Part shown: in pieces, positions 10,240-52,023 of the stretch
Layout: each line of letters opens with the position of its first letter
Position numbering within the stretch: position 1 is the stretch's first letter
From: Liolophura sinensis
Taxonomy: Eukaryota; Mollusca; Polyplacophora; Chitonida; Chitonidae
Reading direction: 5' to 3'
NCBI RefSeq assembly: GCF_032854445.1
Contig: NC_088303.1
Location: 8,005,501 to 8,069,500, forward strand
DNA length: 64,000 nt
Program-made: the position numbers and the translations under genes
Notes under the pieces: model-generated
The model's input: only the letters and a program-made list of their open reading frames with translations
Told to the model about the DNA's origin: nothing
Databases searched by the model: none

Positions 10240-11040
10240 AAATCAAATGTCCCGATCATGAAGCAAGCTGGGGCTTCCCGACATTTCTCGGTTACTAAAC
10301 GTCGGGTTTCGCGAGATAATACGAGGTCTGTTGGCATTACACAGACCAAAGCGCCTGGGGTGAAGAGTCATTTTGCAAATGGTATATATTTGTTTACATA
10401 TCAATTTGGAGATGTCTTTGTTTACTTGCTATGCTATCATTATTCATTAATATCTACACATTATTTCTGTCGATAACCGACCAACAAATTATTAATTTAA
10501 CGTTCAACGTGGGTGTTTTATCTGTTTTGTTAATAAAAGGGTCCATATTTCGTGACATTCGTAGATTGGAATCTGGAAGTTTTCTTCTCACACGCGATAT
10601 AAAGAATCGAGTCTCCACTATTTGGTCTCTCCAACTGTCCTTCCCTTTTGTGGATTTTTAACGAATAGAATTACACTTTGTCCCTTAGCACCATGCCTTT
10701 GATCATAACAATTATTACATTCAGGACACTACGCGCTAATGCCTATGAAATGTTTCTCCCGAAGCCATGCTCTCTGAAAACACACACGCAGAGCATTAAA
10801 GTTCATACACTTTATATTTTTTCTTTCGTTCGGACATAAAGCTTATTACTGTATGATCCATGAAAATAACCAGTCAATGCCAAACTTGAAAACGTCCATG
10901 TACCCGGTAGCGTTTTTCCAGGGATACCTACAAAACTAGCGGGTTCGAATAAGCTTCTTTGGAGGGACAACTCTTGTTAATAAACTCCATTGATTCAAGG
11001 GAAAAAAGGGAGATAATTCACTGAAAGTTTCGGTGAAAAT
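10240..11040 (+). promoter_or_regulatory. Upstream block of gene A (copy 1 of 3)
   Basis: This region is related to blocks upstream of gene B (24.5-25.1 kb) and unit C (41.7-42.4 kb). Shared landmarks are atttcgtgac (near 10,547), a stretch reading gatataaagaatcgagtctcc (10,599-10,619), ctccaactgtcc, ttagcaccatgcctttg, and a later agggacaactc ... gggagataattc. A tatatatt sits at about 10,383. I infer a shared promoter and 5' leader because the block lies upstream of each leader exon. No transcription start is visible. Confidence 0.45.
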
Positions 11041-11164
11041 GCGCCTGCTCTCGATGCATGTTCTTGGTATCATTCTTTTCTTTTTTTTTCTTTTTTTTTT
11101 TCTTTTTTGGCAGACGGACTACCTCGTAGCAGAGACGGTGCAAATATTTCAGTGTTTTTTTTTT

Positions 11165-11903: not shown

Positions 11904-11980
11904 TTTAGAGGAATCTCGATATGATTGGTTAAAACTTTCCTTTGATTTGACTTGCAGGAACTTGACCAATTGAGGAAGAG

Positions 11981-14810
11981 ATGATGAGGTTAACTCTGTG
12001 TTTGTTGGTAGTTGGGATGTTGGGATTATGTAAGTGCATCAGTACCGTAAATGTAAAAATTTGCTTATTCTATGTATTTGAATCTTTGTTGTATGCAAAA
12101 AAATCTGTCTTACCATATGTTAGATGCATAGATAGAAGGTATGTTTTTTCCTTGTCTGAGGTGGAACATGATTCATGTGAGCGAATATATGTGACAATTT
12201 TTTTTATATAAAAATCCTCGTATTTTTGATGTCTTTACAGCGGGTAGCGAAGATGTCAGAGTGGACGATTATATGCCCTTGGTTTACAATTTCTATGACA
12301 TGATAGCTGAGGCTGCTTGTGTGAGCAAGGCTCCTGTAAAACCTACAATGGTATGGGCAATCAGGAGAAACTGTGGAGCAGAAATATGCCGAGAGGTTTG
12401 CAGTGTTAACAGGTGAGTCTTAAATTCGGAAGAGACTATGCCGGAGATTTATGTCAAAAAATTGAACAGTGCAGCGAGTTCACCGTTTCCAGTATGAAAT
12501 GTCGATAAAGCTTGTGGGGCTGTGCAATAAGCGGGCTTTGGTAGCATTGGAATCCATTGACTTAGCCAGTCTTAGCTCTTTTCGGCATGCTGACAGTTTA
12601 TGTTCAAAAGGATGACGTCTTTACCCGTATAAGGCGACACTACAAACTCGTGTATTATTTACCTTTCACAAGATGTCAACCTCTTTTGTCCACTTGCTAC
12701 CGTACAAAGTTAGTGTTTTTAATGCTCCTAAAATTTATAAAGCGGGTCGTAATGTAACTTTTTCAAACTTTGGAATCATTTTAGCACAATAGATAGCACA
12801 GATACCAGACTCTTATTTCCTGGGTATAAGGCAGTAAACTCAGAAACTTTCAGTTATAGAATTCAGATTTTTTTGTTTGCCAAAGATCTCTGGTATAGCT
12901 TCCTAAGCTACATCATCTCTTGAAATGGAGTGGCTTTTGCTTTTTCTGTGTGTCTGTGGCTCTACTTTGAAATTTTCCATATATGTAGGAGAAAGCACGC
13001 TTTACCATATAGATTCTTGAAAAAAATGAAGGGGGATCGAGTTACATAACGAAGCTTTTCAGGATGTTTTGTGTTCTCTGTATACTCTCCTAATGCCACC
13101 TACTACCTTTGTCGAAAGAGCTCACAAATCTGACACAGTAGGCTAATAAACATAACCCAGAATGACCAATGGAAACGACCGCACCATCGTATTCGCCGTA
13201 ACTTGTTTTTGTAAAGTTACTGTGACCGAACGAAGCGAGAAGGATGAATATATACTGGTCAGATTTTACAAAATTCGTTGGTAGAGATTGGTTTTTAAGT
13301 ATGAAGACTATATGTGGTTACTTTGATGATGTTCAGTGAGATCAGGTAGTGGGCACCCTGTCCCCATGAAAGTGATGTGAATATTTATGAGGGCACACCT
13401 CCACTTCGGCCAAAGAAAATTGGTACTCATTTTCCAAGGTATTTACTGGTACAGAGTGTTCATTTGCTAACACGGATTATGTCATGACATACTCGTATCA
13501 TGAGCATTGAATCGAGAGATTCGTATAGACTCACTCCTTGTAAGGAGACGGGGGAAAATCTGAAGACGGGCGACTAAAAACGCCCCGACTGAACTATTCA
13601 AAAATAAAAATGACAACAGCGTAGCGTGTACCGCGGACAAATAAGGGCTAATAAACTCGGCCACATTGCTAGTATAATTCATGGTGGAAGGAATGAATGC
13701 TGATACGATATACATGTATTTCTGTTGAGCAGAGGAGGCAGACTTTGTGAGCATAGAAATGCCTGTGGTGACGATGTGTCTATTTGATTGCATAAGACCA
13801 AGTCAACCTCCGGATCGTGTTTTGAATGTCCACGTTTATCACCTAGGTGGCGTGAATAAATTAACTGAAGACTGATCCCCGCCCCCTCCTTTATTTTCTT
13901 TTAAATTTAAAAGAACACAAATAACGGGGTAGTGATTTGTTGTGGTTGTTTTTACGACAATGTCTTCCATCAGTGAACACAAATCTCAGCTGGTTGCCGA
14001 TTAGCGGCCAGACGGAGAATGACATATCGAAATGGAGACCGCCTTCACAACATATCACTCCATTTATGTCCAGTAGTAATTCAGTTACCTGTATCATTTT
14101 TTCTCTTGCAAAATATCATCTAACAGACTTTTTAAAGAAAAATTTGGTGACATTTATTTTCGAACAACGATGCACACAGTAGGCCTGTCCGTCCGTTTTA
14201 TTTCTGGAGAGGCTTTATCAAATAAACAACACTTAATTGTGTACATGTAATATCTCAGTGTATAATGTGAACAGATTACACTAGTTATGAACTACGTGAA
14301 TTTTACTATGGTACATTTTTGAAACCTACCAACTTGCACATCTCAGTCAGGTCTACATGAAAACAGGAAAGCTCTAATTTAAAAAAAAATCCATCATGAA
14401 GTCATCTTCCGCTTTGTCGTGCAAAAGCCGAATTCCTGGAGCGATTGTGAAACAAAAGTATGGGGAACAAGAAGGAAAACATCAACCATTTTGCAGACAA
14501 TCTAACACAAGAACACTTCGACCGACTGTTGTATCAAGGTACAATTCAATTCAGAAAGCTGGAAGCGACGTCATCGAAACAGAAAATGCAAGTTTGAACC
14601 GCAAGTAATGTTTTTATTCGTTGTTGTAGGCTGAGGTGTTTCTACGGCTTCATCGTAAAGAAGACTCCAAAGATTCTCCACGCCGACAGCAACAAAGATG
14701 AAGGGATAGATGGGTTGGGATCGATTTTCTTTTCGGAAGATGCAGGTTGTACCCATAGCACAGGATGCGGGCCAAACTACTGTTGTTGTGAGGGTGAAAA
14801 GAAGACGTAA
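11981..14810 (+). CDS. Gene A: small secreted ten-cysteine protein
   Basis: Three exons join in frame: 11,981-12,029, 12,241-12,412 and 14,630-14,810 (stop), giving 133 residues. Sites are canonical: donors gtaagt and gtgagt, acceptors tttacag and tgttgtag; intron phases are 1 and 2. Residues 1-17 (MMRLTLCLLVVGMLGLS) form a clear signal peptide. The mature part has ten cysteines at 43, 61, 66, 70, 77, 114, 120 and 125-127, ending GCGPNYCCC. All ten are conserved in gene B, as are DYMP, VYNFYD/IYNFYD, RR.C and PK.. before the lysine-rich linker. It should be secreted and disulfide-bonded. I do not recognise the family. An acceptor (ttgacttgcag, ending 11,957) before the ATG implies an upstream 5' UTR exon. 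It could be an antimicrobial, matrix or mucus protein; nothing in the sequence decides. Confidence 0.8.
12413..14629 (+). other. Intron 2 of gene A
   Basis: A 2.2-kb phase-2 intron bounded by gtgagt and ttgttgtag. I see no gene or recognisable repeat in it; the reading frames inside have no splice context. Confidence 0.7.
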
Positions 14811-14997
14811 TTCGGCAGTTTTATATAACTATGATGTTTTCTAACTCAAGAGCCCTGAAATTAAGTTCTACGTGCTGTACAGATTTTGCACACACAAAAC
14901 ACCGTGGAGTTAAAGCTAAATAACTGTTAGTGTAAAATGTTCCTGTTAACAGTTGAAAACACTGCGATGGAAGAATGACTCGTAACAAGGTATTTGT

Positions 14998-15598: not shown

Positions 15599-15663
15599 TG
15601 TATGGCTTGTAAAAAAAATTGCTCTTAACGCCTGTAAGTTACTCGTATGTCCTTCATGGAGAG

Positions 15664-15987
15664 TGAGTGAGTGCTTAGGGTTAAAGGTAGTACTTAACAA
15701 TTTTTCAGTCATATGACGACGAAGGAATCCTTAGAGTGCATATAACGTTGCCTCCTTGTCGCAGGGCGGATTTCCACAGCTCTTTTATCTAGTGCTGCTT
15801 CACTGAGACAGCTTACCGAAGGCAAGTCAGTGGCCCCGCCCGAGTCATTATACTGATACGGGTCAACCAGTAGTTGCACTATCCCCTTCAGACTGAACGC
15901 CAAGCGAGGAAGTTCGACTTCCTCTTTTAAAGTCTTAGGTGTGACTCGACCCAGGACTAACCCTGGATCTACCGCTCCCGAAACGGA
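15664..15987 (-). repeat. SINE-B copy with 11-bp target duplication
   Basis: Tail (gtgagtgcttagggttaaag) to tRNA-head side (ggatctaccgctcccgaaac) on the minus strand, slightly 5'-truncated. TTCATGGAGAG flanks it at 15,653-15,663 and 15,988-15,998, an exact 11-bp target-site duplication that marks insertion by target-primed reverse transcription. Confidence 0.9.
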
Positions 15988-24412: not shown

Positions 24413-25130
24413 CGTAGGCCTGCGCGCCAAGAACAAACAACCGTTTATGAATGGCATAATGTACGTGTCCACAAATTAATTTCTGGATGCCTTTGGTTAG
24501 TATATCTGCACTATTATTATTCATAAACGTCGATACATTACTTTTGTTGACAACTGTTTTCGACAGTTATCATTTTAATATTCCATATTATGTCTGCTTT
24601 GTGAAAGAAGAGTTCATATTTCGTGACCGTTCGAAGATAGAAGATGACCTCGTCAAGCGCGATGTGAAGAATCGAGTCTCCTATATATTGAGTCACTCAA
24701 ATGTCCTTCGCTTTGGGATAAATTTAAGGAATAGCATTACATTTTAGCACCATACCTTTGCTCGCTTTAATTTTAACAATTAAGACCATTAGGCACTACA
24801 ACTAGTGCTACCTTGTAGGCCTACTTTTCTCGTAAAGTAAAGCCGTCCCCTCTGAATCACTGGACGCCATACATCATAAATCTTACATTTCCTGATGTTG
24901 AAGGCCTTTCTGCTTGCATGTGTAGTTCCGTTTGGCGGCAATTTACTTGTAAGAAGCGCGCAAATCTCCATCCAGTTCAAAATTTACAAGATCCATATAT
25001 TATCTCTCATTCTTGACTTTACACGGGAGACAACTCATATGATGACATTGGATCAAAATCAACCTTTTAGGTTAAAGGGAGACAATTCCATTAAATCTGA
25101 GAACCACTTTCTCTTCACCATCATAAGCCA
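24413..25130 (+). promoter_or_regulatory. Upstream block of gene B (copy 2 of 3)
   Basis: Shares with the blocks upstream of A and C: catatttcgtgaccgttcga (24,613), gtgaagaatcgagtctccta (about 24,665), ttttagcaccatacctttg (about 24,744), and ggagacaactcatatgatga ... gttaaagggagacaattcc (25,026-25,090). The last segment is closest to the copy before unit C. It is 3 kb before coding exon 1 of gene B. Promoter function is inferred. Confidence 0.45.
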
Positions 25131-27892: not shown

Positions 27893-28047
27893 GATTTTCG
27901 GAAATTGTATATCGCCCATCACCTGTATAAACCGAGTGACATTGCAAATGGTCTACCCCTGGTTTGAATTTGGAGGAATGTTGATATGACTGATTAACTA
28001 GCGTTACTTTGATTTGACTTGCAGAAACTTGACCAGCTGAGGAAGAG

Positions 28048-31000
28048 ATGATGAGGGTAACTCTGTGTTTGTTGGTAGTTGGGATGTTGGGATTATGTAA
28101 GTAATCTGGAGGTTAGTCATAATGTTTGCCATAATGTTGGTGCTGTGCATGGATGTTTCAATGTAGTGGCAGAAATGTAAAGATCAAAACAAAAGCTGAA
28201 TCAGCAATTGTCACCTTGATAAGTGTGTGTTAATAGACTAAAACTGCTCCCAGTTGCTTCCCTGATGCTACCAGATACTGTACATGGTCACAAGGTCGAT
28301 TTACAGAGTTCTCAGCTTTATTTAGTAGGTATGTCTGGTCACAAAGACCCAGGAGCTTCTCATCAATGCCTTCACTGGACATAAGCAGGATGGTCTCATG
28401 CTGGACATGTGTGTGAAGGTCTTTCAGCAACCTGTGGATGGTCATGGGTTTCCCCCAGGCACTGCCTGGTTTCCTCCCACCATAGTGCTATTCTTGAGTA
28501 CGGCACATGGGTTCTGAAGGAATGATTAAATCCAGTCTTTTACAGTCTGTAAAATGTAAGTGTATGTTTTTTGTCTTTTGTTTTGTTAAACATGATAGTT
28601 ACTGTATAAACAAATATATATGAAAATATAAATTTTCATACTTTTGTAGTGTTTACGGCAAGTAGTGAAGAAGTCAGATTGTCTGACTATATGCCTTGGA
28701 TTTACAACTTTTATGATGTCATAGCTCAGGGAACCTGTATAACCCGGACTAACAAAACTGCCATGTTGTGGGCAGTGAGGAGATCCTGCAACGGGACGAA
28801 AACATGCACAGATCTGTGCACTAGTAATGGGTAAATATACGTAAACATTTTATTAAATGTATTATATCAGTCTCTCTAGGGGTAGTGATATTTTGCAGCT
28901 TTTTTCTGTGTGTTCTGGTGGGTCTTGGAGTCACCTTTTCCATAGTTGGCATAACTCCTAAAGCTTGCAGCTTACATTGAGTGCACCTTTACCTATATAC
29001 TCAAAAAGTTTTCTGTGTATATGTTTCAAAGTCTTTTTATTCGTTTTATTATCATACTCAAGAAATTTGCACTCATAAGATAATGGTCAATTTTATGGAT
29101 GTGATGCCTGTGGGATGCTCACTGATCTTTGGCAGGCTAGCCTACTGACAAACTTCCCGCATGTGACGTACATTTCTATACGTCACATATGACAAGCAGT
29201 CTTCAACAAATTTAAGACTGTGCAAATGGTCCTCCAAACAGTATCAAACCCTTTGTCACCAAAACCCCATGAACAGTGGAAGTGGAGGAATCTGCATATT
29301 CTCTGTCTAAAGCTGGGATTGAACTGGCAGCTAGTATGTCCCAGAGATTGGAAAACAAACACCTTAACTACTCCGAGTTGGCCATCCTCCCTGATAACTC
29401 AGTATAGAAGAATCCTTAAACATGCACCTTGCTTTTAAGTTTTGATTTGAATGATGAAGGTGAGAGATTTATATGTCCCTGCACTATAACTGTAAAATAC
29501 CTTTAACACCTATCTATCTCGACTATTATGTCTAATCACCCTAAATGGAATATTTGTCATTTTGCCCTACCTTATCCTGACATGTGGACGGTGTGAGCCA
29601 CTCAGCCCTACCTTATCCTGACATGTGGACAGTGTGAGCCGCTCAGCCCTACCTTCTTCTGACATGAGGATGGTGTGAGCCACACAGCCCTACCTTATCC
29701 TGACATGTGGACAGTGTGAGCCATTCAGTTCTACCTTATCCTGACATGGTGATGATGTGAGCCACTCAGCCCTACCTTATCCTGACATGGGGATGATGTG
29801 AGCCACTCAGCCCTACCTTATCCTGACATGGAGATGATGTGAGCCACTCAGCCCTACCTTATCCTGACATGGGGACGGTGTGAACCACTCAGCCCTACCT
29901 TATCCTGGCATGGGGATGATGTGAGCCACACAACCCTACCTTATCCTGACATGGGGATGATGTGAGCCACTCAGCCCTACTTTATCCTGGCATGGGGACG
30001 GTGTGAGCCACTCAGCCCTACCTTATCCTGGCATGGGGATGGTATGAATCACTCAGCCCTACCTTATCCTGACATGGGGACGATGTGAGCCACGCAGCCC
30101 TACCTTATCCTGACATAGGGATGGTATGAATCACTCAGCCCTACCTTATCCTGACATGGGGACGATGTGAACCACTCAACCCTACCTTATCCTGACATAG
30201 GGACGGTGTGAATCACTCAACCCTACCTTATCCTGACATGGGGATGATGTGAGCCACACAGCCCTACCTTATCATGGCATGGGGACGGTGTGAATCACTC
30301 AACCCTACCTTATCCCGACATGGGGATGATGTGAGCCACTCAGTCTTACCTTATCCTGACATGGGGATGGTGTGAGCCACTCAACCCTACCTTATCCTGA
30401 CATGGGGATGGTGTGAATCACTCAGCCCTACCTTATCCTGGCATGGGGATGGTGTGAGCCTCTCAGCCCTACCTTATTCTAACATGGGGATGATGTGAGC
30501 CACTCAGCCCTACCTTATTCTAACATGGGGATGGTGTGAGCCACTCAGCCCTATCTTATCCTGACATGGGTATGATGTGAGCCACTCAGCCCTACCTTAT
30601 CCTGGCATGGGGATGGTGTGAGCCACTCAACCCTACCTTATGCTGACATGGGGATGATGTGAGCCACACAGCCCTACCTTATCCTGACATAGGGACGGTG
30701 TGAACCACTCAGCCCTACCTTATCCTGACATGGGGACAGTGTGAGCCACTCAGCCCTACCTTATCCTGACATGTGGATGATGTGAGCCACACAGCCCTAC
30801 CTTATCCTGACATGGGGATGATGTGAGCCACACAGCCCTACGTTATCCTGACATGGGGATGGTGTGAGCCACTCAACCCTACCTTATCCTGACATGGGGA
30901 CGGTGTGAGGCACGTAGCCCTACCTTATCCTGGCATGGGGATGATGTGAGTCACTCGGCCCTACCTTATTCTGACATGGGAAAGGTGTCAGTCTCTTAGG

Positions 31001-34000: not shown

Positions 34001-35326
34001 GGGCGATCCTCTTCAAGCTTCAAAACCAACTGCATGTAGAGCAATTCATCGCATCTCTCGGATATTGCACGATTGAACAAGGGATTTGAAAGAATCTGCC
34101 AGTCTCCCGGAGTAATTGGACGTTTGGACTGAAAACATGTGTGCGTGCCTCTCAGTGCACATAGGAATGAAGCGGACGATGTAAACAGAAAGGGGTGTCA
34201 TTCCAATGATGTCCAAGTCATATGTCACCATGGAGGAAAATGGATAATCGTTGTTGCAAGGTGGCCATGTTCATCCCATGATAGCCGTGTCCTTAGATTG
34301 AGTGAAGGAAAAACGGTGCTGTCTGTGGGTATATCCTGGGAGACAGTGGTTATCTGTGTCGTTGGTAGCTGATGACGCCACGGCTGTACCCTAGTATGCA
34401 GAATGGTGGGGTAACAGGGCCGATAATAGCTTGCAACATTGTATGTCAGCCTAGTTATTTGCTAAGTGCTTAGTTGCCAACTGTCTGATCAGGTGCTTAT
34501 AACATGGTTTTATGAATACAAAAACTGCTTACTACGGACAAGGGATTTAGTTGCTTGCAAAGGCAGCAGTGTTTTATGATCATGAACCCTGAGATTTTAC
34601 TGGCATGTAAAGCAGAACGATGCAAGAGAGATATGTTCCATCGCCTATGATCTGTGAGCATATTAATCGCCGTAAATTACAAAATTCATAATTTGAGTTC
34701 AACATTGAGTTGAAGTTTTACATTCATGTGTCTCATACAGGTGAGCTCTTTGGTAATTTACCAATTCTAAGTATTGAAGTACATTTATTGGCTTTATTCC
34801 TACCGTTCCTTGGATTTTTTCAGACAATGCCGAGTTCAGCTGACACGAATTGAAAATGGCAGGTAGCAAAGATTGGCATGCTGTCCATAGGCCAAGTACA
34901 TTTATGTTAATTGTGGCGCTGTGGTCTTCGTTATTCACACTTAAGTATAGATGACAGGAAGTCACAATTACTGTAGAATGAAAGCAAACACGTATGTTGA
35001 AGATTTTGCAACCCCACAAATCAGTTTCGTCAAGCATTGTGATACATCCGTAATTTTTGCATACATACATGTAAATTCACCGAATTTTCTTTTTTAATTT
35101 GTTGTTTTCTTCTTCTTGTAGGCTGGCTTGTTTGTTCTCCTACCACATCTACAAAAATCCTAAGATAATCAGTGACAGCAATAACAAAAAGACGGAAGAC
35201 GATATCATGGGGTTACAGACGCATATCTATGGGTTTCATCAGGGTTGCACTTGGCCTGCTGGTAATTGTGGGCCAAACTATTGCTGTTGTGAAGGTTTAT
35301 CTAACCCAGCATATAACAATAACTAA
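28048..35326 (+). CDS. Gene B: paralogue of gene A, secreted ten-cysteine protein
   Basis: Exons 28,048-28,096, 28,650-28,830 and 35,122-35,326 (stop) join in frame to give 144 residues. Intron phases (1 and 2) match gene A. Donors are gtaagt and gtaaat; acceptors are cttttgtag and cttcttgtag. Residues 1-16 (MMRVTLCLLVVGMLGL) differ from gene A at one position, so the signal peptide is almost unchanged while the mature part has diverged strongly. Ten cysteines fall at 46, 63, 69, 73, 80, 119, 126 and 131-133, ending NCGPNYCCCEG, then a short tail rich in Asn. Intron 2 has grown to 6.3 kb by a 41-bp minisatellite and transposon relics. The role is unknown; conservation of all cysteines suggests the fold is maintained. 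Confidence 0.8.
28345..28505 (+). repeat. SINE-A copy, diverged
   Basis: Includes gacccaggagcttctcatca, gaaggtctttcagcaacctg, tttcccccaggcactgcctg and attcttgagtacggca. It lies in intron 1 of gene B and accounts for most of the length difference from gene A. Confidence 0.75.
29565..31400. repeat. 41-bp minisatellite, about 44 units
   Basis: The unit is gccactcagccctaccttat then cctgacatggggatgatgtga. Units are clean in the middle and diverge beyond about 30,960, where variants such as cctggtctggggatggtgtg appear. It fills part of intron 2 of gene B. Confidence 0.95.
31700..32075. repeat. Degenerate gaagtccctttgaa repeat
   Basis: Short, irregular units around gaagtccct, ttgaagtcc and agaagtgcc, partly resembling each other in both directions. 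The same motif family returns at about 33,000-33,270. The minus-strand frame across it is low complexity. Confidence 0.7.
33000..33270. repeat. Second patch of the gaagtccctttgaa repeat
   Basis: Shares gaagtccctttgaa, aagtccctgggaag and gaagttcctctgaagtccct with 31,700-32,075. The two patches are separated by about 930 bp without recognised features. Confidence 0.65.
33745..34350 (+). pseudogene. HARBI1-like (PIF/Harbinger) transposase relic
   Basis: Fragments in shifting frames resemble HARBI1-type transposases: a VFRDRLNPI start (about 33,788), MRNPALELYQQVPITLQYYAT (33,912 on), a SPGVIGRLD segment, and VNRKGCHSNDVQVICHH with VARWPCSSHDSRVLRLS (34,180-34,300). Frameshifts and the lack of an acidic third catalytic region show it is dead. 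Flanks hold possible weak inverted ends (cgtattcaaa near 33,511 and tgaatacaaa near 34,512). It lies in intron 2 of gene B. Confidence 0.7.
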
Positions 35327-37894: not shown

Positions 37895-38760
37895 CCTGTT
37901 CTGTATTTACTGCGAAGCCAAGGCAATTTTGTGCGCACTTCGGTCCATTCCAGGGCTCGGAGGTGGCAGATTTCTCATCTGCTCGGACTCCCTTCCTGCC
38001 TCCAGGCAATTCGGGCTTGTTCGTCTGTACATCCAGACATTCTGTCTATCAGGAGATGTTTTTAAACGACTTAATGAAGATTTTATCATTGTCTTTTGTT
38101 GAGTGCCCGGGCATATGGGTATCCCTGGGAATACTGCTTGCAGATGAAGCCGCGAAGGCGGCTCTGCATTCCGTTACTACCCAAACTGACGTCCATATTC
38201 GGACTTGCGTTCACTTATTTGCTCCTATATCAAGCGCTTGTTTCAGGCTCAATGGGATGACCAGACAACCAACAAACTGCATGATATTCGTCAGTTTGTT
38301 GGTCCAGCAGCTTCCCTTTCAAGGGATCGTCTCCGCTCTTGCGTTTTGAGGAGGTGTCGTATCGGTCACACACGTGCTACGCATGGGTATTTGTTGAAAG
38401 GAGAAGATGCTCCTCATTGCTTTGCTTGTGATCACAGTCAAGCACATATTGCTTGACTGTGGCGACTTTGCTCCTGTACGAGATTCCTTTTATCATGTAA
38501 GCTCTCTTTCAGAACTTTTCAATTCTGTAGAAAGTGATACTATTTTTGATTTTTCTCTTTACCATTGGTATGGCTGGAAAACTGTAATTTTAAACTACCG
38601 TCTGTGTTTGTGACTTCTGGTGTCCTTTTTTGACTGAATAGTAAATGAATTATCCGTAGTAGATCGACTACTTGACGTTTTATTGTCGCGATGAAACTGA
38701 AATATTGTTGAAAGCGACGTTTAAAACTTTCACTCACTCACTCACTCACTCACTCACTCA
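37895..38760 (+). pseudogene. 3' end of a LINE: RNase H, C-terminal segment and ACTC tail
   Basis: Broken frames encode an RNase H-like part (CEAKAILCALRSI, then FLICSDSL), LADEAAKAAL (about 38,130), and RIGHTRATHGYLLKG with a Cys/His-like CFACDHSQAH and LLDCGDFAPVRDS (38,350-38,490). This is the usual end of I/Jockey-type LINEs with an RNase H domain. After the last frame the 3' UTR ends actgaaatattgttgaaagc, gacgtttaaaactttc, (actc)7. Frameshifts make it non-functional, and the reverse transcriptase is absent (5' truncation). Confidence 0.75.
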
Positions 38761-40372: not shown

Positions 40373-41689
40373 TACATGTCTTGAAACGAGAATGCCTCAT
40401 ATGCATGTACGTTCAATTCCGACAAATGATTGATATAAAGAATAACAGACACACTTTCTCAGAGTCATATTATACTGGAAACGATATACAGGAAACTCCT
40501 ATCTTCCGGGTTCCAGGTTATAGTGAATGCAACGATTCAAAGCGGTTAATGTGGAAGCTAAGCTAGGACGTGGCCATCCGATCCCAAGGCTAAATATTCA
40601 CCTGCTTTGTCAACAGCAATAGGTTTCTTCAGATGTTTTAGATGGGTTTATTCTCAAATTAGGCCATGTGCTTACTATGAAGCAGCTCATGAATAAACTT
40701 TTGAGACAGGTCTATCATGGGATAAAATGGTTGACGATTAATAGTGCTGTGCTGAGCATTCTTATGCTTTTAGGGCAATATTTTCTGGCATTCTCTCTTT
40801 CCTTCAGGAAGCTGTGTGATAGGTGTTTGTATACACCATTTATTTAGTGTTATGCTTAATTTACTATTTTGTTGACGTTTTATTAAAATTTATTTAACAG
40901 TATTTTACTTTATGATGAAAACATAATATACAGACAGGTCATACAATAATTTGATTCTGTTTGTGATATTTGAGATTTTTCATAATACGGATTCTAGTTA
41001 ATAACTGAGCCTTGTCTTTTGTTCTGGCTTAGTCCTACTTTGTATCATATTTTTCTATTTAAATTCCGAATGACTAAAGCATAAGGCCCATAGTGTCTTC
41101 AATATGATGTGTTCGATCTGTGATGTTCTGTAAATTATGATTGCAAATACAACCAATTTGGCGTGACCTGGTTGAACCCATGTCTGGTCACATGACCACC
41201 AGGAGTACCATTATAACCTAAGGCAACGCAGATTACACGTGTATGCTTTAAAATAGAAAATACATTGTGTGGGCGTTTTTGCCACTCGTGAAAAATAACA
41301 AGCTCGTGCGTCGATCGATATACAGGCCTGTCTTTCACAGCGATCGTCTTTCTGTTCCATGGCTACGAGGTCATATTCAGTGAATCTTAATTTGGATTTT
41401 CTTTTTCTTCTCGTTTTTTTTCATTATATTGTTAATAGAACTTGGAATCTGCCTTCAATTTTTCACAGCATTCCTTTAGACTCCCATGCAGTGGTGAAAA
41501 AAATTATTTTACATAGGCCTATAGTGCTTTTACTGGAATTCCGTCTAACATAAGTTATATGGGACACCCTTCCATCCCCCTTTTTACTATGCCACAGTTA
41601 AGAACCTTTGTGTCCTTTAACTGTATCTAGCATGGCACTAGAGCCTATATAGGATATACATAATATTCATGTACATGTATCTCCCTCCT
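40373..41689. other. Non-coding, nothing recognised
   Basis: Unique AT-rich sequence between the 77-bp minisatellite and the upstream block of unit C. No supported gene. Confidence 0.55.
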
Positions 41690-42400
41690 AGCCGGCTTCT
41701 CGTCCTGGTTATCCAACGCCAGGTATCGCGAGAAAGCACGAGGTTATCGTGACTAGTATAGAGCAGCGCCCAGGGAGCAAGCAGACGTCTTATCAGTGGT
41801 AAACAGTGTGTATAAATATATATATTATTTCTGTCGCTCTGTTCGCAATTATTATTTTTATCACGCGATCATCCAGTTGTCTGCTTTTTGAACGGCAACG
41901 TTCACATTTCTTGACCTTAGCAATTTGGGATGACCTTCTCACACACTATATGAAGATTCTGTTACCTTTCCAATGTCTCCAATGACTTTGACTTTGGTGG
42001 CCATTTAAGGCACAGCGCCACTCTTATAGTGAATGCACTTACATTTCAGCTTAACAACTAAGACAACCACTATCTATCGACGCGATACGTTAAGTTTCAA
42101 GGGAATCCATCATCTCAGAAGTTACAGGACATCATACTAGTACGTTTCATACACTTCCTGTTGGCCATTGTTCAACTTCGTCTTTTCGTTTGGCACACAT
42201 GGCTCCATTAAGACTTTAGTTAGTTGTATGATCGTAGCAAATCACCGGTCAGAGCCAGACTTCAACAAATCTACATGGAAATTACACAAAATTAGTTTCT
42301 GACTCTGAGCTTTACAGGGGAGACAACTCGTATAATCAAATCACATCCAAATCAAAAACTTCATTGGTTAAAGGGAGACAATGAATTGTACGGCATTATA
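41690..42400 (+). promoter_or_regulatory. Upstream block of unit C (copy 3 of 3)
   Basis: Aligns with the blocks before genes A and B: tcgcgagaaagcacgaggtt (41,727), attatttctgtcgctctgtt (about 41,824), cacatttcttgacc, gatgaccttctcacacacta tatgaagattc (about 41,930), and ggagacaactcgtataatca ... gttaaagggagacaatg (42,318-42,383). A good TATA box (gtataaatatatata, from 41,810) lies just before the aligned core and would suit a start near 41,840. The block is about 0.9 kb before the leader exon. Confidence 0.5.
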
Positions 42401-42804
42401 GTGTCTACAGTGATGACAGCAATCCAAAGCAGGTGCGGTTGATGTTGGGCATCTGACTTGTCTCCAGCACCTTGTACATACTTGTGCTGCAATGTGGAAA
42501 ACACAAACAAGATCATTCTACAACACATTATTGTATTGTACTGTATTGTTACTAGAAAATGTAAGCCAAAAGACAGAATCATAATACAACTATATAGATG
42601 TTTTCTTTTTCAGTCTTCTGAATTTGCTGTGTAGATGGACATATATTAGTCTGCAAATTGTTTGTGTGAAAAAGCTATATGGTAGAAAATACAGCCCTCC
42701 TAGATCTAAGAGGTGGAATGTAAGAAACACCATTAAGCTGAACATGGCCTTAGAGGAGTGGTGATATAATAGACTAATTATATTACTTTGATTTGGCCAA
42801 CAGA

Positions 42805-45800
42805 ATGATTTCCAGATCAAGAAGAAGAGATGAAGGTGGCTCAGTCTTATTGATAGTTAAGGTGCTGGGATTATGTAAGTACAGCTACTTCAATACTGCA
42901 AAAGTAAAAACTTGCCTACTCAGTGAAAATGACGTTGTGTTAGAGAACTGGGAAAATCTACGGACTATAAAATACATGATGGATGGAAGAATTTTTTTGT
43001 AAAACTTTCAAGAAATTGTAAGAAAAAAAATGGTCATCAGCTGAAAAATTATGAAGTACAACATTAATCCCAAAACATAGACTAGCATCAGAATTTAAGC
43101 CAAAAGTCAAACTGGACACTAGGAGCAGTACTCAGAGTTCTTCTGGTTTGCCTGCAAGTTTCCTGGTCCTAACACAAAAAGATTTGTGTTATTCTGATTT
43201 TACATGGTTCTGGTTTCCAGTAAAGCTGCTGGAACATGCCTAATAATTTAAACGCAGTTTTATATTGGTTTTTATTGGAAAAGAAACTGTGACAGTTATT
43301 AATGTCCATGCAGTGTATATATTGTTTCTGTGACAAATATTTACTATAAAAACTTAATTGAATCAATTAAATACTATAGAGATAAAATCTAAAATTTCCT
43401 TCAAGACTACGTCTTTCATTTTTATTTAATTCTTTTAATTGATGAATGATATTCTACTGGAAAACTAATTTTCAGCACCAAGAGCCAGTAATATTTTATG
43501 AATTTTGTGTCTCTAGAAGTGCACTTGGGTGAAATTGGAACATATGGCAACAATCTAACATTGATATGAATTCCTGTAAATGGCCTAAAGACACTGTTGA
43601 AAAACTACCTACTAGGATGTGCAATAATTGGTATATTTTTTCTTCTTTTTTCTTTCAGTTTTAATACCAGAAGGTAAGCATATGCACATGACTGAAAACA
43701 AATATAATACGTACTGACAGATGTATACACAAAATAAAAGCTAACAAACTAAAACTTTACAATTGTACATAATAAGCCAGTGCATTAAAACCAAGAGATC
43801 ACCTTTCACAAGATCCGTAAGGGTATTTTGTTCAGTCAAAGATCATCATAGTGTAAGACTTGGGTGTATGGCAAGATTATCATCAGACTGTTTTATGGTA
43901 ACATGGGTAAATTTGTGCAGTAACAAATTATGAATAGTCAGCTTGAAAGAAACAACAACTCGCTGAAAATGCCTTTCACTAGTTAAATCCAGATTTATTG
44001 ATATTGAACAAAAGGAAACAAAAGACATGTAGAACAGTAGCAAAAAAGGAAGAATACGTGAACAGGGAGACAGTACACTCATTCTCTACATGCCAGTTTA
44101 TGTGTAGACCTTTTCCCTTTAGGTACATATAGGACTGCATGCTGGGGACGCATGACCACGCCTAGACACAAAATACAAATAATTATACAAAGAACTGCTG
44201 TGGTTGTATATGTTAAAAGCATGTAATTAAAAGATCAGGATAAAATATAAATTGCACCTAAAAACACCTAAAATATGCCAAGGTAGTAATAACTAATACA
44301 AGAGCAGTGAGGCAATGCACAAGGTTATCCTCATACTCACTGATCAGGTATAACCATGCCAAGGATGACTGGAGTTGACAACTGACTGATTTATGCTTTG
44401 TACTATTCCAGGATTCTGACCATAGCAAAATGCAAACAACCTATTAAATTATAAGTGGCTGAATTGCAAAGTCACATAAGAACTGGCCCATGTCACCCAC
44501 AACAACTGTGGCATGAACAATAAGCATAAGCAACATTATACTAAGATAACAACCAAGAGCTGGTTGCCCAGCACAAGTTGTCCCTGCATAATTTGAGTTG
44601 TCATATACATCAGCAGTGTCTCACCCAATCATGCCCATAGCAAGTATATATACAAGTGACAGTTGTTACCACATACAATATAACAGTCAGACATGTCTAT
44701 CATAAACATGATATTGTGTAAAAACATCCTCACAACAAATAATCACACCTATTTACATGTGTAATATCGTTATATCTTTAGTTGTAACGACCAAATGAAA
44801 AATTAATCTATAGTGAATATGCGATTGGTGAAAGTAAATGCAGTGAGTTCATGTTTTGTGTGTGCATATAAGTATTTGGCAATGCAACACATACAGCGCT
44901 AGCATTGACCAAGACAATAAATGTTGTGAATGTAAATGAATTGTACATTCAATTGTCAAAGTAACTACACGAATTAAACCTTCCAAGTGTTAAATCTATC
45001 ATTATCTAAGGCAGCTTGGCTACATGGGCTCAGCATGTTCACAACTTAGTGCAAAATTTGTAGACTTTAATTTCATCAAAACAAGGCTACCCTTTTTCCT
45101 CTAATTTTTGGGACACCTGATCTACTCATTTTAGCCAATATATATGTACTTCTAGCAGGCACATTGAGTTTCTTTTTTATCACATGGTTAGACCATACTC
45201 ATATCTTTAAAAAAACATACTTTGCCAAAAGACAGGTAACGAAATGTAATATTTTGCTTTCAACACGACTAATATCTGTCCCAAAATTTAGAAGAATTAG
45301 GGTATATAATAATCATAACCAAGTAAGCAAATACTCATTACCACTTGGCCATGTCTCAGCTAGTGGTTATCATGCATATATGACTAGCTTCACAGGAAGA
45401 CCCAGATTACCATGAGACAGCCCAGTGATAATAACTTGCCATATACCCGTGTCATATTGGCGTACAGGGTAGGGCATTTGTGCTTGTGCAATATTCTGAT
45501 AGATTAGTTACATGGAAAACTCACTTTAGCTTTGTGAAAGTGCCAGTATGTTTATATAGGCTATGTACTCTGTAACCCATATCTTCTACCATCAGAATAT
45601 TAAAATTCACTGCAGTGAGTTTCTTTCAAGCAGACTTGATGTATTCAAAAGCTCGCATGCATATGCTCAGATTACTGGGGGACAGTGCGATGATGATATC
45701 TCACTGTGCACAACGGTCTTACAATAGCTAGAGGTCTGCCAGCAAGCTGAGGATTGTCGCGGGTTTCCGCCGGGCTCTGCCGGGTTTGCTCCCACCATAA

Positions 45801-48800
45801 TGCTGGCTGCCGTCGTATAAGATAACACCAATCAAATAAATAAAAACATTAGCTAGAATATGGTATAGTCATATTGTTATTATGAAAAACCTAGGTATAA
45901 GTATAGGCTACGATTTTAGCCCATTCATAGGCAGATTCTTCATTATGGTGATCAAGTTGTTAGCATTAAAAATCCAGGTAAGGTGCACATGTCAAGGTGC
46001 ATGTGAATGTAAGTGGTTCTTTGCTGTTCTGCAAGATGGCCTCCAAGTATACTGGAATGCATCTCCTGACAAGTACCAGGTCTTGCATATTATCTGAACT
46101 TGTGCATGCTTAAGTTTAATGGCAATCGGGTAATTATTTTCACGACTACATGAATTTAGGACTTAGCTTAACATTGCTTTCCATGTAATCAGATTGTGTG
46201 CATACATCTCTTCCTAAAGTAATGAACCTGTTTCCGTGAAACTTAGCATACATCTCTCCTAAGATCTAAAATTGTGCATGATTAAGTTTATTACAAGCGC
46301 GTAATTACATTTTCATAATTACTCCCGTTCAGTTCCTTAATTAGTGAAGTAATGGATTTTCATGTACACTGTATTCTCTTTTGATACTACATTTCTCCAT
46401 TCAAAATGGAAGGATGTACCAGTAGTGCAATCAGTGCACACCACGAATTTCTCATGAAACAATCCATATGAAGCCAAAACTAAGCAACACGACATCCTGT
46501 CAATTCTTTTAACGTTTTATTTCTTTTATTTTTGGAAAATGTTGGGGGATGGAAGGCCTTGGGAAGCGATTTAGCACACCCAGATTTTAGTTTTGAATTC
46601 CTGTCAGCAATAGTGTATTTGTTGGATTTGTACAATTTTCAGCTTTCCAGATAGTCTAAGTATTTATGTAGAGGTTACACGATGCGCCTCACACTTGCCG
46701 GATAAAGAAAGTGGCAATCTGTTGGTCGCCTGTAATCATTTGTGGCCAGGAGTATATGTAAACGTGGGGAACTCTCGTCTTTCCTTGTCAATAAGTCATC
46801 CAATGTCGGACCAACCAACCTCGTGTACCTCAAAACCTCTGTCAAACCATAAGTGTCAACAAGTAAGCATCATCAGCTATGTGTACGAAATGAGGGAAAT
46901 GCCAGGCCTTTCTTGAGAATGAAGCCCAGAGACTAAACAGACAAATCCAGGAACTAAGAGACACTCAACAGAAAGTCAAGTCTATTATGAAAGAATGTGC
47001 CACCCAAGCGGAACTGAACAAAGCAGAAGCTGACAGGCAAAATGACTCTGGTTCGACACAGGTGAAGAAAGCATCTGGAGCCTCGTGCGGACACAATTAA
47101 GCACAATATACCAGTAGTAGTGTACGGAGCAAATGGTTTGCCTTACGATAGACGAAGGGATCTTGAAAACAATCTTGAAAAATCTGGCTTGAAATCAAGC
47201 CTGCCAAGTCAAACTCATTTTTAACACATTTTCGATACTGCTCGCCAAATTCACCTACCTCATGGGTGAATGAGTTTACATCAAACCTGAAAAAGGCTGA
47301 CAGTGAACAAAAGGAGCTTATTCTGCAGTGTTGATCTACATGTATATAACACTGCACATCATAAATGGAGCAGCATGCAGGTTTGATTCATTTAGTCTTA
47401 TTGAAGTAGTTAATTCTCCAAACCAGAATTGCAAGATGAATTGATCACATCTATGTTAATAGTACTGACAGTATCCTGTCTGTTTATGTCCCTTTTCTTT
47501 CCATGACCATTTTCCAATTAGCATTACTTTAAAATCCAAAATTAACTACAGTAAAGGTCACAAACACACAATAATTAAATACCCTAAGCACTTTGATAAA
47601 TCTCTTCAGGCAAACCTTATTGATGCGCCTTTTAGAAAGTGTTGAATACATCACAAATGCCGAACAAGCGACAAACAAATGGTTTGTTCTGTTTCAAGGT
47701 GTCCTTGATAAGCATTCGCCACTGAAAACTACGCGAGTTACTGAGGATATACTTAATCCATGCATCGGTGAGACATGTACAAAGGTGATAAATTATAAGC
47801 ACTGGAGAAATAAGGATGCTGTAAAAATTTAAAAGCTAGGAATAAAAAAATTCTTAAGTGACCTGAAAGACTACACATCCTCTTCTAGCAGTATCTGGAA
47901 AATTCCGCGAAACATTAATCCTAAACTAAACAATTTACAAGAAGTTATGTCCGATAAGGATGACAATGTGATAACAGACACTTTCAGAATTGGTGAAGCC
48001 TTCATGTAATGAGTCTATCTGAGACATCCAGAGCAAGAAATGTGTTCCTCGGTTTGAAAGACTTAAAAAGCAAAAAATTGATGAAGTTTCGCGTGATACT
48101 TGTTTCCCTATACCAAATATTTTTCTATACTATATACCATACCTCTCAATAAGGGTGCCCCCCCCCCAAAAAAAAAAAAATGAAAATTATCATCCTATCT
48201 CTACTTTATCCATATAGTCTAAAATCGCTCAATATGTTAGCGTTGATGGATATCTATGGCATGTCATCTTACTACAGGATTTTCAGTCAGGCTTTAGACC
48301 GTTACACTTTTGTGAAACTGCCGTCTTGACAGTCACTAGATTTTACTTCAAAAACTTGAAATTTGCAAGTTCCACAACACTGCTGTTAATTTATTAAAAA
48401 CCTATTGGTAAAACGGAAAGCAGATGGCTGTTTTGGGACGAGAAATGTTAAATGCCTTGCATGTTCAGGCAGGAGTTCCACAGAGCTCCATATTAGGACC
48501 CCGGCCCACTTTTTATTATGTATATTAATGATATACCATTGTATATTAGTCAGACCTGAACTTTTCAGCTGAAACTACTGCTTATAGTTCAGCTGATAAT
48601 CTATCAAAAATTGAACAGAAAATACGCATATATAAGTATGATGTTGGTGTGATGCAAATTGTATGTTTATAAATGTCAATAAATCCAAATGTAAGCTGAT
48701 TCGATCCAGAGAGCACTTAAATGCATGCTGTCAACCATAATTCATTCAGTGTAGCAGTTAATGGAAAAAATCTAGACAAGGTCAGGTGTACTAAGGTTTA

Positions 48801-51800
48801 GGGTATCCGTATTGAAGAAAACCTAATGTGAAATGACCAGGTACAAAGTGTGAGAAAAAATACAATTCCTAGCCATAGGGATTCTCAGAAGAAAACGAAA
48901 ATAGTTAGTCATTCATTATAGTCAGATTTTTCCCTCACTTTGATTACTGCGTTGATTATGGAGAAATACCAGTTCTAAAAACAATGTTGAAGTTACAGAA
49001 AGGAGCTGCAAGACTGGTATTAAAAGATAATGTTGCAATTCCCAGTAGTAGTACTCGATCATTTCCAAAGGTTGAAATGGGTGTCATTTAGGGCAATGGT
49101 AAACTACCAAGGGGAATCAAATTTGGCTACATCATTCACATAATCGTTTTACGACCCAGACGTCAGCCAGTTGCGCACTGTTTACAGATCGCATATCTGC
49201 CCAGAGACCGCTTTTGCGCTGCCCATCTTTGATTCTGAGAAAGGTGGTAACATAATGGGGAGTTTTTGCCAAAACGAGCGCTCACGTCCTTAAGTAATTT
49301 GTGGGTACCTCAGTGCATCAAGATATCATGACCATGAAGGTCCTTGTCTTGGAGCTTGTGCCGTTCATGGATGCCCCATCATGGCCCAGGCCTCCAATTC
49401 CAGCATGACAATGCGAAATGCGTGTGTTTAGGTCATGGAGTGGTCATTGAGATCACGTGGCCCCGATCCCTTCGAACACGTATGGCATGCCCTTGGAAGA
49501 AGTTTTGACGTCTTGAGACGTCAACCCCAGAATGTTTAAGAGCTGGGGGCCATGTTGGTGCAGCAATAGCGCACTTTGCCTTGTGTGTTTAATGGGCGTT
49601 AGCAGATGTTCATGTTGATTTTGAAATTATATACATGTGTGTGAATGTTATAAAGTAGATTCTCATGTGTTTGATTAATGTATCAAACACAGCCAGAGGT
49701 GCTACTTTGGTTATTCCAGTAATCTTCCAGATATCTTGTATGCTACTATAGTGTGGTAAGTCTTGAAAGATTTGATCATGATAATGCGAGATGGAATTAT
49801 TGAGGTAGTGGTTATATCTCTTAAGTACATGCCGTGTAGTTAACCACGTGTCTTGGTCACGCTTGAATGTGTGTATCATATATCTAAAATTCAGCTTAGC
49901 CTTTGCTTGCCTATCTCTCACATCAGCCAGTCAGGATTTATTCTGTATCCCTTTAAAGAGTACTGGGTTAAATGTAATAAGCTTGCTGTACTGAAGGTCA
50001 GCGTGGGTACATGCATCCGGTTACAGTGGAGTGCTCCCGTGCCCCCATGCTCCCATGATCCCTTGCTCCCGGACACCCATCCAGCCAAGAGATTCATTGG
50101 TTTTGATTGGTGTTTTACGCCGTACTCAAGAATATTTCACTTATTCGACGGCGGCCAGCATTATGGTGGGTAGAAACCAGGCAGAGCCCAATGGAAACCC
50201 ACGACCATCCGCAGGTTGCTGACAGACCTTCCCACTTACGGCCGGAGAGGAAGCATTGGTTTTGAATTGTTCCTTCGGAGTGCGGGTTACCAGGTCCCAC
50301 ATACCAGTGTTGATGATCGAGGCACTGGAATGTGGCTTGAATGAACCATAGGAGGATAACCCGGTATTGTTAATTGAAGACAAGTGCCCTATCTCTTCTA
50401 ATTGTTGGAACACCTGGTTTGCTCATTTTAGCCAATGTATATACACTTAATTGTAGTAGGAATATTGAGTTTCTTTTCTCTCACATGGCTAGACCATCTG
50501 ATGAACAGCAAAGTAGTTTCTGTTACTATTAGGTTAATGTATCTAGTAGTTTCTGTCACATACTGTAAATACACATGACGAGAATGGGGATGTAAATAAA
50601 CTAGTATGGCTACTCCCTGAATTCCCAACGTTAGCGTTGTTTGTTAGGATAAGCAATTATCTGTAGCTTCTGCTAGTTACAATCCATAGTTTTTTTTTTC
50701 CTCGGAGTGCAATTTGATTGAGGTTCATGGTGTTTATGCATCACCTCCGGCTTGTTATACAGGGATTACTGGTCACTGATTGAGTGGAAACATTTAGACC
50801 ATTTCCCCATGCTTCGAAATCGGAAGTCTATTTTCGCCCACGCTGTAAAGGGTGATCACATAATCTCCAACATACAGCCGTAGGGATATAGAATATCCAT
50901 TTAGATTTTTATTTATTTAGATACTAAATAAGCTGTAATATAAGATGCAGATGCTTTAAACTGGGTGCTTGAGTGAACTGATGTGGACATGTATGTATGT
51001 TGTTCTGCTAATTAATGTCTACTTTAATATGGCATCCAATATTTGAAATGCCGAGCCATAACTTTAATCGTAAAAGGTCTTTTATTAACAGTTTGTTTTG
51101 GATGCTTATAGTGATTAGAGGCTAAGTGTACCAGATATAAAATACTGAAAGGTTATTGAAAGCTATATTCTAACTTGTGTCTAAAGGTGACCGACAAGAG
51201 CGGCCGATCTATGCAGTAAGGTATAACTGGGGTGTCCTTTGTACATGTATGTTGTTTCCATATTTTATTACTTGTTAAATACAGGGCATATTCTCAGATG
51301 TAAATACTTAACTATTAAACATACTTGTTAAATTCAGGACATATTCTCAGATGTAAATACTTAACTATTAAACATACTTGTTAAATTCAGGACATATTCT
51401 CAGATGTAAATGCTTAACTATTAAACAGTGCATTTTATTTTCAGTTAACACATCTATCGAGTGTACCACTACAATTGATTTGGTTTTCGTCATGGACCTC
51501 TCGGGTAGCGTTCAGACTCACGGATACGAAACCATGAAAGCATTCATCAAAGAAATGATTTCAAGATATCAAATCGGTTCTGCTAACACTAGAGTTGGTC
51601 TGGTTGTGTTTAATATTGAGGCTTATGTAGAGTTCTATCTGGACACGTATTATCAGAAAGAAGAACTAATTTCTGCCATGGACAATATCCGATCGTTTGG
51701 TAGGGAAACATATACCGATCGTGGGTTGTATTCTGCGCGTATGAACGTGCTACAGGAGTCAGCAGGAGATCGGCAAGATGTACCCAATGTAGTCTTGGTT

Positions 51801-52023
51801 CTAACTGATGGAAAATCCAAAGACCCTACAAAAACGGCGTACCAGGCAAATCTATTACACAGCAGTGGGGCAGAAGTTATCGCTTTGGGAATTGGAAGTA
51901 ATGCTGATCTCGACGAGCTGAACGCCATTGCTAGCGACCCTGACGAAGAAAATATGTATCGTGTGTCAGACTTTGACAGTATGTCCTCAATTATAGATGA
52001 ACTTGTGATGAAAACATGTGGAG
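42805..52023 (+). CDS. Unit C: secreted von Willebrand factor A-domain protein (3' end open)
   Basis: Exons 42,805-42,874, 43,659-43,673 and 51,445-52,023 join in frame with every intron in phase 1. Residues 1-28 (MISRSRRRDEGG, then a hydrophobic VLLIVKVLGLFLI) act as leader. Residues 39-215 form a vWA domain: DLSGS at 46-50, Thr119 in TYTD and Asp150 in LTDG complete a metal-ion-dependent adhesion site; Cys35 and Cys220 flank it and could pair. Such domains bind protein ligands through a divalent cation, usually outside the cell. Exon 1 is homologous to exon 1 of genes A and B. After 52,023 the donor gtatgt is good, but I cannot fix the next exon; without splicing the frame stops at 52,037. 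The gene may be cut off by the transposons from 52,979 on, or continue beyond the window. Confidence 0.65.
43659..43673 (+). other. Candidate 15-nt microexon of unit C
   Basis: TTTTAATACCAGAAG lies between a very strong acceptor (tttttcttcttttttctttcag) and a good donor (gtaagc). Both boundaries are phase 1, so it adds five residues without changing frame and extends the hydrophobic leader (FLIPE). Skipping it would also keep frame. Confidence 0.55.
43674..45090 (+). other. Part of the last intron of unit C
   Basis: Start of a 7.8-kb phase-1 intron. AT-rich sequence without recognised elements until the duplicated segment at 45,094. Confidence 0.5.
45094..45200 (+). repeat. Direct repeat copy 1 (partner at 50,390)
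   Basis: About 105 bp including gctcattttagccaat-like (actcattttagccaatatat) and attgagtttcttttttatca catggttagaccat, resembling 50,390-50,495 at roughly 80 per cent by eye. Confidence 0.65.
45735..45847 (+). repeat. SINE-A 3' part
   Basis: From gtctgccagcaagctgagga through gccgggtttgctcccaccat to ccaatcaaataaataaa. The usual gaaatattcttgagtacggc segment is missing, replaced by a direct join gtataagataacaccaatca. Confidence 0.85.
45848..47589 (+). other. Intron sequence of unit C, including possible 5' LINE remains
   Basis: Mostly unrecognised. Two related stretches near 46,080-46,330 (catgcttaagtttaatggca / catgattaagtttattacaa) suggest an old local duplication. From 46,910 to 47,095 a frame rich in Glu, Gln and Lys reads like a coiled coil and ends at a stop; it may belong to the first ORF of the LINE that follows. 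Confidence 0.35.
47590..49140 (+). pseudogene. Degenerate LINE reverse transcriptase
   Basis: Fragments in several frames resemble a non-LTR polyprotein: VLDKHSPLKT (47,708 on), a HPISTLSI-like block (near 48,190), FQSGFRPLHFCETAVL (about 48,281), a QAGVPQSSILGP motif (48,466) that normally precedes the catalytic ADD region, a frame reading SADNLSK in its place (near 48,590), and a LKLQKGAARLVLKD segment (about 48,985) typical of the C-terminus. Many stops and indels. It lies in the last intron of unit C. Confidence 0.7.
49255..49605 (+). pseudogene. Tc1/mariner-like transposase C-terminal relic
   Basis: Across shifting frames: GYLSASRYHD (about 49,298), LQFQHDNAK (about 49,390; the DNA with the second catalytic Asp), an ITWPRS-like block (about 49,447) and PFEHVWHALGRSFDVLRRQP (about 49,467), then ELGAMLVQQ and RTLPCVFNG interrupted by two stops. 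The order and spacing match the end of Tc1-like transposases. Terminal repeats not found. Confidence 0.7.
50107..50253 (-). repeat. SINE-A, 5'-truncated, 12-bp target duplication
   Basis: CATTGGTTTTGA flanks the element at 50,095-50,106 and 50,254-50,265. The body is well conserved (gtgttttacgccgtactcaa, cggcggccagcattatggtg), suggesting a fairly recent insertion into the intron of unit C. Confidence 0.9.
50390..50495 (+). repeat. Direct repeat copy 2 (partner at 45,094)
   Basis: Contains tttgctcattttagccaatg and attgagtttcttttctctcac atggctagaccat. The pair brackets about 5.2 kb holding the LINE and Tc1 relics. Confidence 0.65.
51271..51430. repeat. 53-bp tandem triplication before the vWA exon
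   Basis: Three units starting cttgttaaat at 51,271, 51,324 and 51,377 contain ggacatattctcagatgtaa and tacttaactattaaacata. The last unit runs into the acceptor of the vWA exon (tgcattttattttcag), so the branch-point-like ttaactattaaac is present three times. Confidence 0.9.

Follow-up and report, generated by a model that had tools for sequence, protein, structure and literature searches.

Ancient, finished proteins are the usual basis for inferring that exons were shuffled behind a signal exon. The shuffling of class 1-1 exons is described as an established route for extracellular modules (Patthy; PMC8001218), and phase 1 introns are described as being in excess around signal cleavage sites (PMC1626468). 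A precedent for a shared signal and promoter before different products is described in Schistosoma japonicum (PMC3434034), and chimeras formed by tandem duplication are described as able to change expression in Drosophila yakuba (PMC5460883). Here we report on a locus of the chiton Liolophura sinensis in which three head-to-tail units, A, B and C, lie on the + strand of a window of 64,000 nucleotides (C9:8005501-8069500 of the 609-Mb assembly; positions without a contig name refer to this window). Each unit consists of an upstream block of ~640 bp followed by a leader island. In A and B the leader precedes the exons of a protein with ten cysteines, and in C it precedes a vWA domain. Unit C is probably a chimeric secreted-protein gene that arose by recombination inside introns, and it most likely follows the established class 1-1 exon-shuffling route. 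All exon structures given here are predictions from sequence.

Three units share an upstream block and a leader exon

The upstream blocks, which are candidate promoters or 5′ non-coding regions, were located by a hidden Markov model (HMM) on the + strand at 10378..11006 (A), 24452..25089 (B) and 41766..42382 (C); the following best match in the window had an expectation value (E) of 6.9. A second HMM placed the leader islands at 11905-12035, 27970-28102 and 42750-42880 (following best E 0.92). Both models were built from the copies of A, B and C, and these three seeds match by construction. Local pairwise alignment gave block scores of 104 (AB), 38 (AC) and 75 (BC) and leader scores of 104 (AB), 54 (AC) and 54 (BC). 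The maximum was 17-21 for 500 dinucleotide shuffles and 14-17 for 500 other pieces of the window. Scores of 38-104 against at most 21 and at most 17 thus bear out an earlier note on this DNA, which had claimed three units with a homologous block and leader.

In the local pairwise alignments the blocks of A and B are 75% identical over 338 aligned bases and those of B and C 69% over 524. Across the whole block the three pairs show 58-62% identity, the copy of C being about as well preserved as A and B are relative to each other. Conservation is even overall, with no focus on motifs. Five copies of the word GGGAGAYAA are present in the 64 kb, all of them inside or two bases beyond one of the three blocks, for example at 11008, just beyond the HMM end of A, and at 42318 and 42373 in unit C. 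A sharply conserved promoter motif was rejected: the single three-way identical run of at least 6 bases, GACAACTC, is 8 long, and column shuffling of the block alignment yields 0.5 such runs on average with a 95% point that reaches 8. The block was likewise rejected as coding sequence, as tblastx returned two short matches between A and B and one between B and C, of 15-21 residues, none between A and C, and no coding pattern. Filler in which homology was not detected separates block and leader (~0.9 kb in A, 2.9 kb in B, 0.4 kb in C); the span of 24.4-28.12 kb which the earlier note had given as the block of B does hold both block and leader of this unit, but is mostly filler.

The leader island is composed of an intron end, an acceptor, a short tail of 5′ untranslated region (5′UTR), a signal-type coding stretch and the donor GTAAGT. 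The leader exon of A (11958..12029, +) comprises the 5′UTR tail and, from 11981, 16 codons plus one nucleotide; that of B (28025..28096, +) has its coding sequence from 28048, and both have an acceptor and a donor and end in phase 1. The coding stretches 11981-12029 and 28048-28096 agree at 48 of 49 nucleotides with a synonymous divergence (dS) of 0, compared with a dS of ~1.2 for the mature exons (1.1 for exon 2 and 1.35 for exon 3) and with a barely alignable intron 1 (24/48 bases). Identity between A and B is 120/132 in the island and 353/567 in the block (Fisher p 1e-11), the island borders having been taken from the local alignment, which favours the island. This near-identity is explained most simply by gene conversion of the leader, and alternatively by strong constraint on the DNA.

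A leader native to the ten-cysteine family

The ten-cysteine protein of unit A is encoded on the + strand by exon 2 at 12241..12412 (family HMM 8e-30) and by exon 3 with the stop codon at 14630..14810 (1.5e-26), A being a seed of this HMM. The same model located exon 2 of unit B at 28650..28830 and its exon 3 with the stop codon at 35122..35326, also on the + strand. In-phase splicing of the predicted exons yields 133 amino acids for A and 144 for B, each with ten mature cysteines, all of which are aligned; outside the leader the two proteins are 45% identical (52/115 codons). Neither protein matched Pfam, and that of B matched no PDB sequence.

A genome-wide search with the mature part of B returned 21 exon matches at E<=1. 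We assign these to six C9 loci, A and B among them, to four loci on C1 and to two weak ones. A further 70 kb examined downstream (C9:8149600-8219599) holds the ten-cysteine members D, E, F and G. The leaders of D (C9:8168268-8168313, MKVALCLLTIVIAAI) and E (C9:8188775-8188820, MKVVLCLLVVGISSF) end in phase 1, and D is also preceded by the 3′ end of the block. A leader island was not found ahead of F and G in the examined stretches, in which exon 2 of G is partly masked (L013:7894-8093 masked as N). The leader is common to A and B and to the more distant D and E, which indicates that the cassette is native to the ten-cysteine family.

The two sides of unit C have different relatives

The leader exon of unit C (42804..42874, +) has an open frame from the ATG at 42805 and a phase 1 donor. 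The vWA exon (51445..52023, +, phase 1-1) matches PF00092 with E 8e-43 and 147.1 bits (cut-off 23.8) over profile positions 1-173 of 174, and thus represents a full domain. The metal-binding (MIDAS) residues of VWA domains are DxSxS, then T, then D; in the translation we read DLSGS, TYTD and LTDGKS by eye. A candidate micro-exon of 15 nt (43659..43673, +, phase 1-1) encodes LIPE. Phase 1 introns flank the predicted vWA exon and the micro-exon on both sides, and the frame from the leader, which ends in phase 1 at 42874, to the vWA exon, which starts in phase 1, is open with or without the micro-exon. The predicted exons are in phase, in line with the earlier note, according to which the leader feeds the ten-cysteine protein in A and B and the vWA domain in C.

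The genome search for vWA exons, in which 150 of 262 candidates were scored and listed at E<=1e-10, revealed C6:26395888-26396451 (48%) as the closest match besides the exon itself among the matches listed; the other match on C9 among them reached 27%. This C6 exon shares exon boundaries and phase with that of C and is, among the matches listed, one of six same-strand vWA exons in a row, which are taken as one gene. Upstream of it lies a phase 1-1 micro-exon candidate of 15 nt (IPPE), identical to that of C at 11/15 bases; the similarity extends into the acceptor tract and covers 61 nt at 78.7% (E 3e-8). Intron sequence also matches C6, upstream at 50992-51016 and 51086-51139 (E 2e-4 each) and downstream at 52112-52175 (84%, E 1e-14), giving an outer extent of 50992..52175 (+) that is interrupted upstream of the exon. 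At the head of the C6 row stands a different signal-type exon, MKKFWCGLLLFLSLEGTLVSLTTAQD, ~0.9 kb before the first vWA exon and the sole scan match in 6 kb; the leader HMM detected no similarity of this exon to the leader of C.

Upstream unit C is thus related to the ten-cysteine family and downstream to the vWA gene of C6, with a switch that falls within an intron. Homology to intron 1 of A was detected up to 42932 and to C6 from 43618, which leaves 42933..43617 (+) as the likely switch interval, with a length of 685 bp provided that the micro-exon and the vWA exon arrived together. Under a strict setting the micro-exon is the sole phase 1-1 candidate in the 8.6-kb intron of C, with 0.4 expected from the window density, the micro-exon itself being counted.

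The frame of the vWA exon is open over 192 codons, and comparison with C6 gave a nonsynonymous divergence (dN) of 0.42, a dS of 1.12 and identities of 58/74/53% at the three codon positions. In neutral simulations (3000 copies per setting), 10.4, 1.4, 0.3 and 0.03% of the copies remained open at 0.1, 0.2, 0.3 and 0.4 substitutions/site, respectively. As the frame is still open at a dS of ~1.1 from C6, this exon was probably under coding selection.

Neither the family HMM nor tblastn found ten-cysteine exons after C in the window or in C9:8069501-8099500, the best match apart from A and B having E 0.24. The genome-wide search, which is the sole cover of C9:8099501-8149599, found none at E<=1 between C9:8040823 and 8159546. 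Also a second vWA exon was found neither in the window nor in C9:8069501-8099500 nor in the other downstream stretch examined.

Proposed origin of unit C

An ancestral ten-cysteine gene would have consisted of the block, a 5′UTR/signal exon ending in phase 1 and two mature-protein exons, and its 5′ part would have been duplicated in tandem. Copy C would have lost both mature-protein exons, and its intron 1 would have recombined with a copied internal piece of a C6-like multi-vWA gene. The incoming piece would have brought the 15-nt linker micro-exon, an intron and the class 1-1 vWA exon, leaving its own promoter and signal exon behind, and the ten-cysteine cassette would supply promoter and signal. 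Splicing from leader to vWA exon, with or without the micro-exon, keeps the frame because a leader with a phase 1 end meets incoming exons of class 1-1. Later drift of the leader would have included a deletion of 1 nt which destroyed the former start frame; the protein would now start from a new upstream ATG, placing a longer basic N-terminus before a similar hydrophobic core. D and E retain the base that is missing in C, and both the deletion and the upstream ATG are thus derived in C.

The earlier note had already suggested that promoter and secretion signal were duplicated and a new domain then captured. This order of events agrees with a leader native to the ten-cysteine family, a unit C that lacks detectable ten-cysteine exons and a vWA side that matches C6. 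A single transcript would join leader and vWA exon and its product would be secreted; the term adhesion-type, which the note had applied to this product, may be appropriate in view of the domain. Expression may be shared by A, B and C; the sole point in favour of C having inherited the pattern of A and B is the persistence of the block at 58-62% identity.

Alternative explanations

Several observations weigh against a chimeric origin and are best considered together with the explanation that survives best beside it, namely that the parts of C are chance neighbours. On this view a third ten-cysteine gene would have died, leaving the block and leader of C as its 5′ remnant, and the vWA exon would be part of another gene that has a promoter and a signal exon of its own. 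Where A, B, D and E have their ATG, unit C (42830..42853, +) has 7 open codons followed by a stop owing to the 1-nt deletion, and this ancestral start is out of frame according to a five-way alignment and translation; the ATG at 42805 falls within the 5′UTR of A and B. The leader coding sequence of C is 71-73% identical to those of A and B compared with 63-65% for the intron tail, and is hardly better preserved. The view of the earlier note that one leader cassette is shared thus holds for A and B, where it is near-unchanged, but not for C, which is ~72% identical and has lost the original frame. A classical signal peptide has a basic n-region, a hydrophobic core and a small-x-small cleavage site; inspection of the C leader by eye showed a lysine within the hydrophobic core and no clear small-x-small site. 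The lack of ten-cysteine exons after C fits the same explanation, as do three other phase-1 signal-like exons between leader and vWA exon (45882-46008, 49371-49479 and 50435-50564). These exons lie downstream of the micro-exon, however, and would be of use to the vWA exon only in a transcript that skips the micro-exon. A crude scan of 35.6-43.66 kb yielded one other such exon, 38407-38533, which we judge to be a retroelement-like frame.

The preservation of the block of C, about equal to that between A and B, also speaks against a dead 5′ end. The leader of C retains the acceptor AG, the GTAAGT donor, the 14-nt GGGATTATGTAAGT, phase 1, an open frame and a hydrophobic core (hydropathy 2.8, compared with 2.7 in A and B). 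When neutral decay with a 1-nt deletion was simulated (60000 runs per setting), an ATG frame with core and AG/GT survived in 0.5-1.6% of the runs, and in 1.4-3.1% without the hydrophobicity condition; the simulations of this analysis were designed after the data had been seen. On balance we regard chance neighbourhood as unlikely.

Further points against a chimera concern the vWA side and the sensitivity of the searches. When the settings of the micro-exon scan were loosened, the window showed 6 candidates (+ strand) and 3 (− strand), and 48,329 bp of vWA loci contained 16, which means that such a micro-exon is not rare by itself. A whole-genome DNA search with the micro-exon region returned only itself. 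As many as 18/170 intron tiles match L024 at E<=1e-3, several of them at repeat positions. A tree of 18 rows (the window and 17/19 paralogues) did not resolve the pairing of the C9 and C6 vWA exons. The 3′ end of gene C has two candidates, namely a stop reached by read-through at 52037 and a short exon (VLCMKS*) at 52509, and C6 shows no clear donor at the place homologous to this end. Finally, the 71-base leader query recovered A and B from the genome and missed C.

Locus G of the ten-cysteine family complicates the route by which the micro-exon entered C, as it also contains a micro-exon (IPPE; C9:8154661-8154675, L013:5062-5076), and this too counts against the chimera as proposed. Over L013:1049-10000 and the start of L014 (C9:8150648-8159644) the locus shows in a row a Sushi exon, 3.8 kb upstream of the micro-exon, the micro-exon, a 33-nt exon-like stretch (L013:5879) and the ten-cysteine exons. 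In C6 an exon candidate comes next after the vWA exon, and the region of this candidate has a weaker match in G as well. If the micro-exon came from the ten-cysteine side, the switch would lie between the micro-exon and 50992 instead. Locus G is either a second mosaic or the remnant of an older combined gene that decayed differently in C and G. According to the latter explanation, one C9 gene comprised leader, micro-exon, vWA, linker and ten-cysteine exons; C then lost the ten-cysteine exons and G the vWA domain. The micro-exon and the C6-like stretch ahead of the ten-cysteine exons of G, with no vWA match between its micro-exon and these exons, are in line with such a gene. The second and third matches of G are weak, however (E 1e-4), and 5/60 control tiles reached 1e-3, a background that also tells against the chimera; moreover, the micro-exon query returned T-rich stretches only in the loci around A, B, D and E. 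An older combination appears improbable, slightly more so than chance neighbourhood.

It is a comparably doubtful proposal that the ten-cysteine cluster of C9 repeatedly swapped modules with the multi-vWA gene, C and G both being mosaics, and that the leaders of A and B are kept near-identical by conversion as their products diverge. If true, the cluster would be an active workshop pairing one secretion cassette with different extracellular modules.

A mobile or repetitive nature of the leader cassette, with insertion beside several genes, as an identical cassette before different products in the Schistosoma japonicum family might suggest (PMC3434034), is very improbable. A DNA search of 609 Mb with the B block as query found A, B and C and nothing else, so that the block is no common repeat (this search is insensitive to diverged copies, as the leader query showed); in addition, the copies are tandem and the leader is native to one gene family. 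A repeat-element origin of the cassette was rejected accordingly.

Other features of the window and the related loci

Ten-cysteine member F (C9:8206365-8209017) has an exon 2 close to that of E and an exon 3 with one cysteine and the CGP motif changed, and may be decaying. Among the vWA matches listed, a long array of near-identically scoring exons ~1.8 kb apart lies at C4:17.96-18.03 Mb. Minisatellite arrays with ~41-bp and 77-bp steps occupy 29564-31400, in intron 2 of B, and 38789-40375. Transposable-element frames were found at 57889-58842 (+; DDE_Tnp_4, 4e-26), 54038-54769 (−; integrase core, 1e-10) and 3240-4490 (+; zinc knuckle, 0.001, below the cut-off). Four copies resembling short interspersed nuclear elements, ~86-90% alike, lie at 8154-8491, 15661-15987, 35683-36026 and 36405-36722, and an Rfam tRNA match barely above the cut-off (35669-35740) overlaps one of them.

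Comparison with known systems

Judging by titles and the beginnings of abstracts, we found among the papers listed no publication describing the gene of unit C. The closest protein in kind, proximal thread matrix protein 1 (PTMP1) of mussels, is described as a secreted vWA protein with cysteines flanking the domain (PDB 4cn8; PMC4754843), as the predicted product of C would be; PTMP1 has two vWA domains, whereas unit C shows one vWA exon in the window and C9:8069501-8099500. The chimeric genes described in Drosophila yakuba likewise arise by tandem duplication, through which other sequence comes to lie behind a 5′ regulatory end (PMC5460883). As described, they are young, polymorphic and seen in RNA, whereas unit C is old (dS ~1) and known here from sequence alone. 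The Schistosoma japonicum family is described as combining one cassette of signal sequence and core promoter with different products, as in the window, but its copies, on 34 contigs in 18 scaffolds, are dispersed and have flanking repeats (PMC3434034). Here, instead of many dispersed copies, three tandem blocks were detected at the sensitivity of the search, and the new product is a known domain.

The homologies, phases and open frames of the locus point to class 1-1 shuffling as described (PMC8001218): phase 1 after the signal exon, a symmetrical 1-1 module and an intronic switch. It differs from that description in that promoter and signal, rather than a whole modular protein, would be shared, and in that a donor-type gene and the recipient family both survive in one genome. 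The recipient family, the donor-type gene with its different signal-type exon and the switch interval can all be read there, which makes it feasible to test concretely whether the expression pattern, too, passes to a domain that acquires the promoter and signal of another gene.

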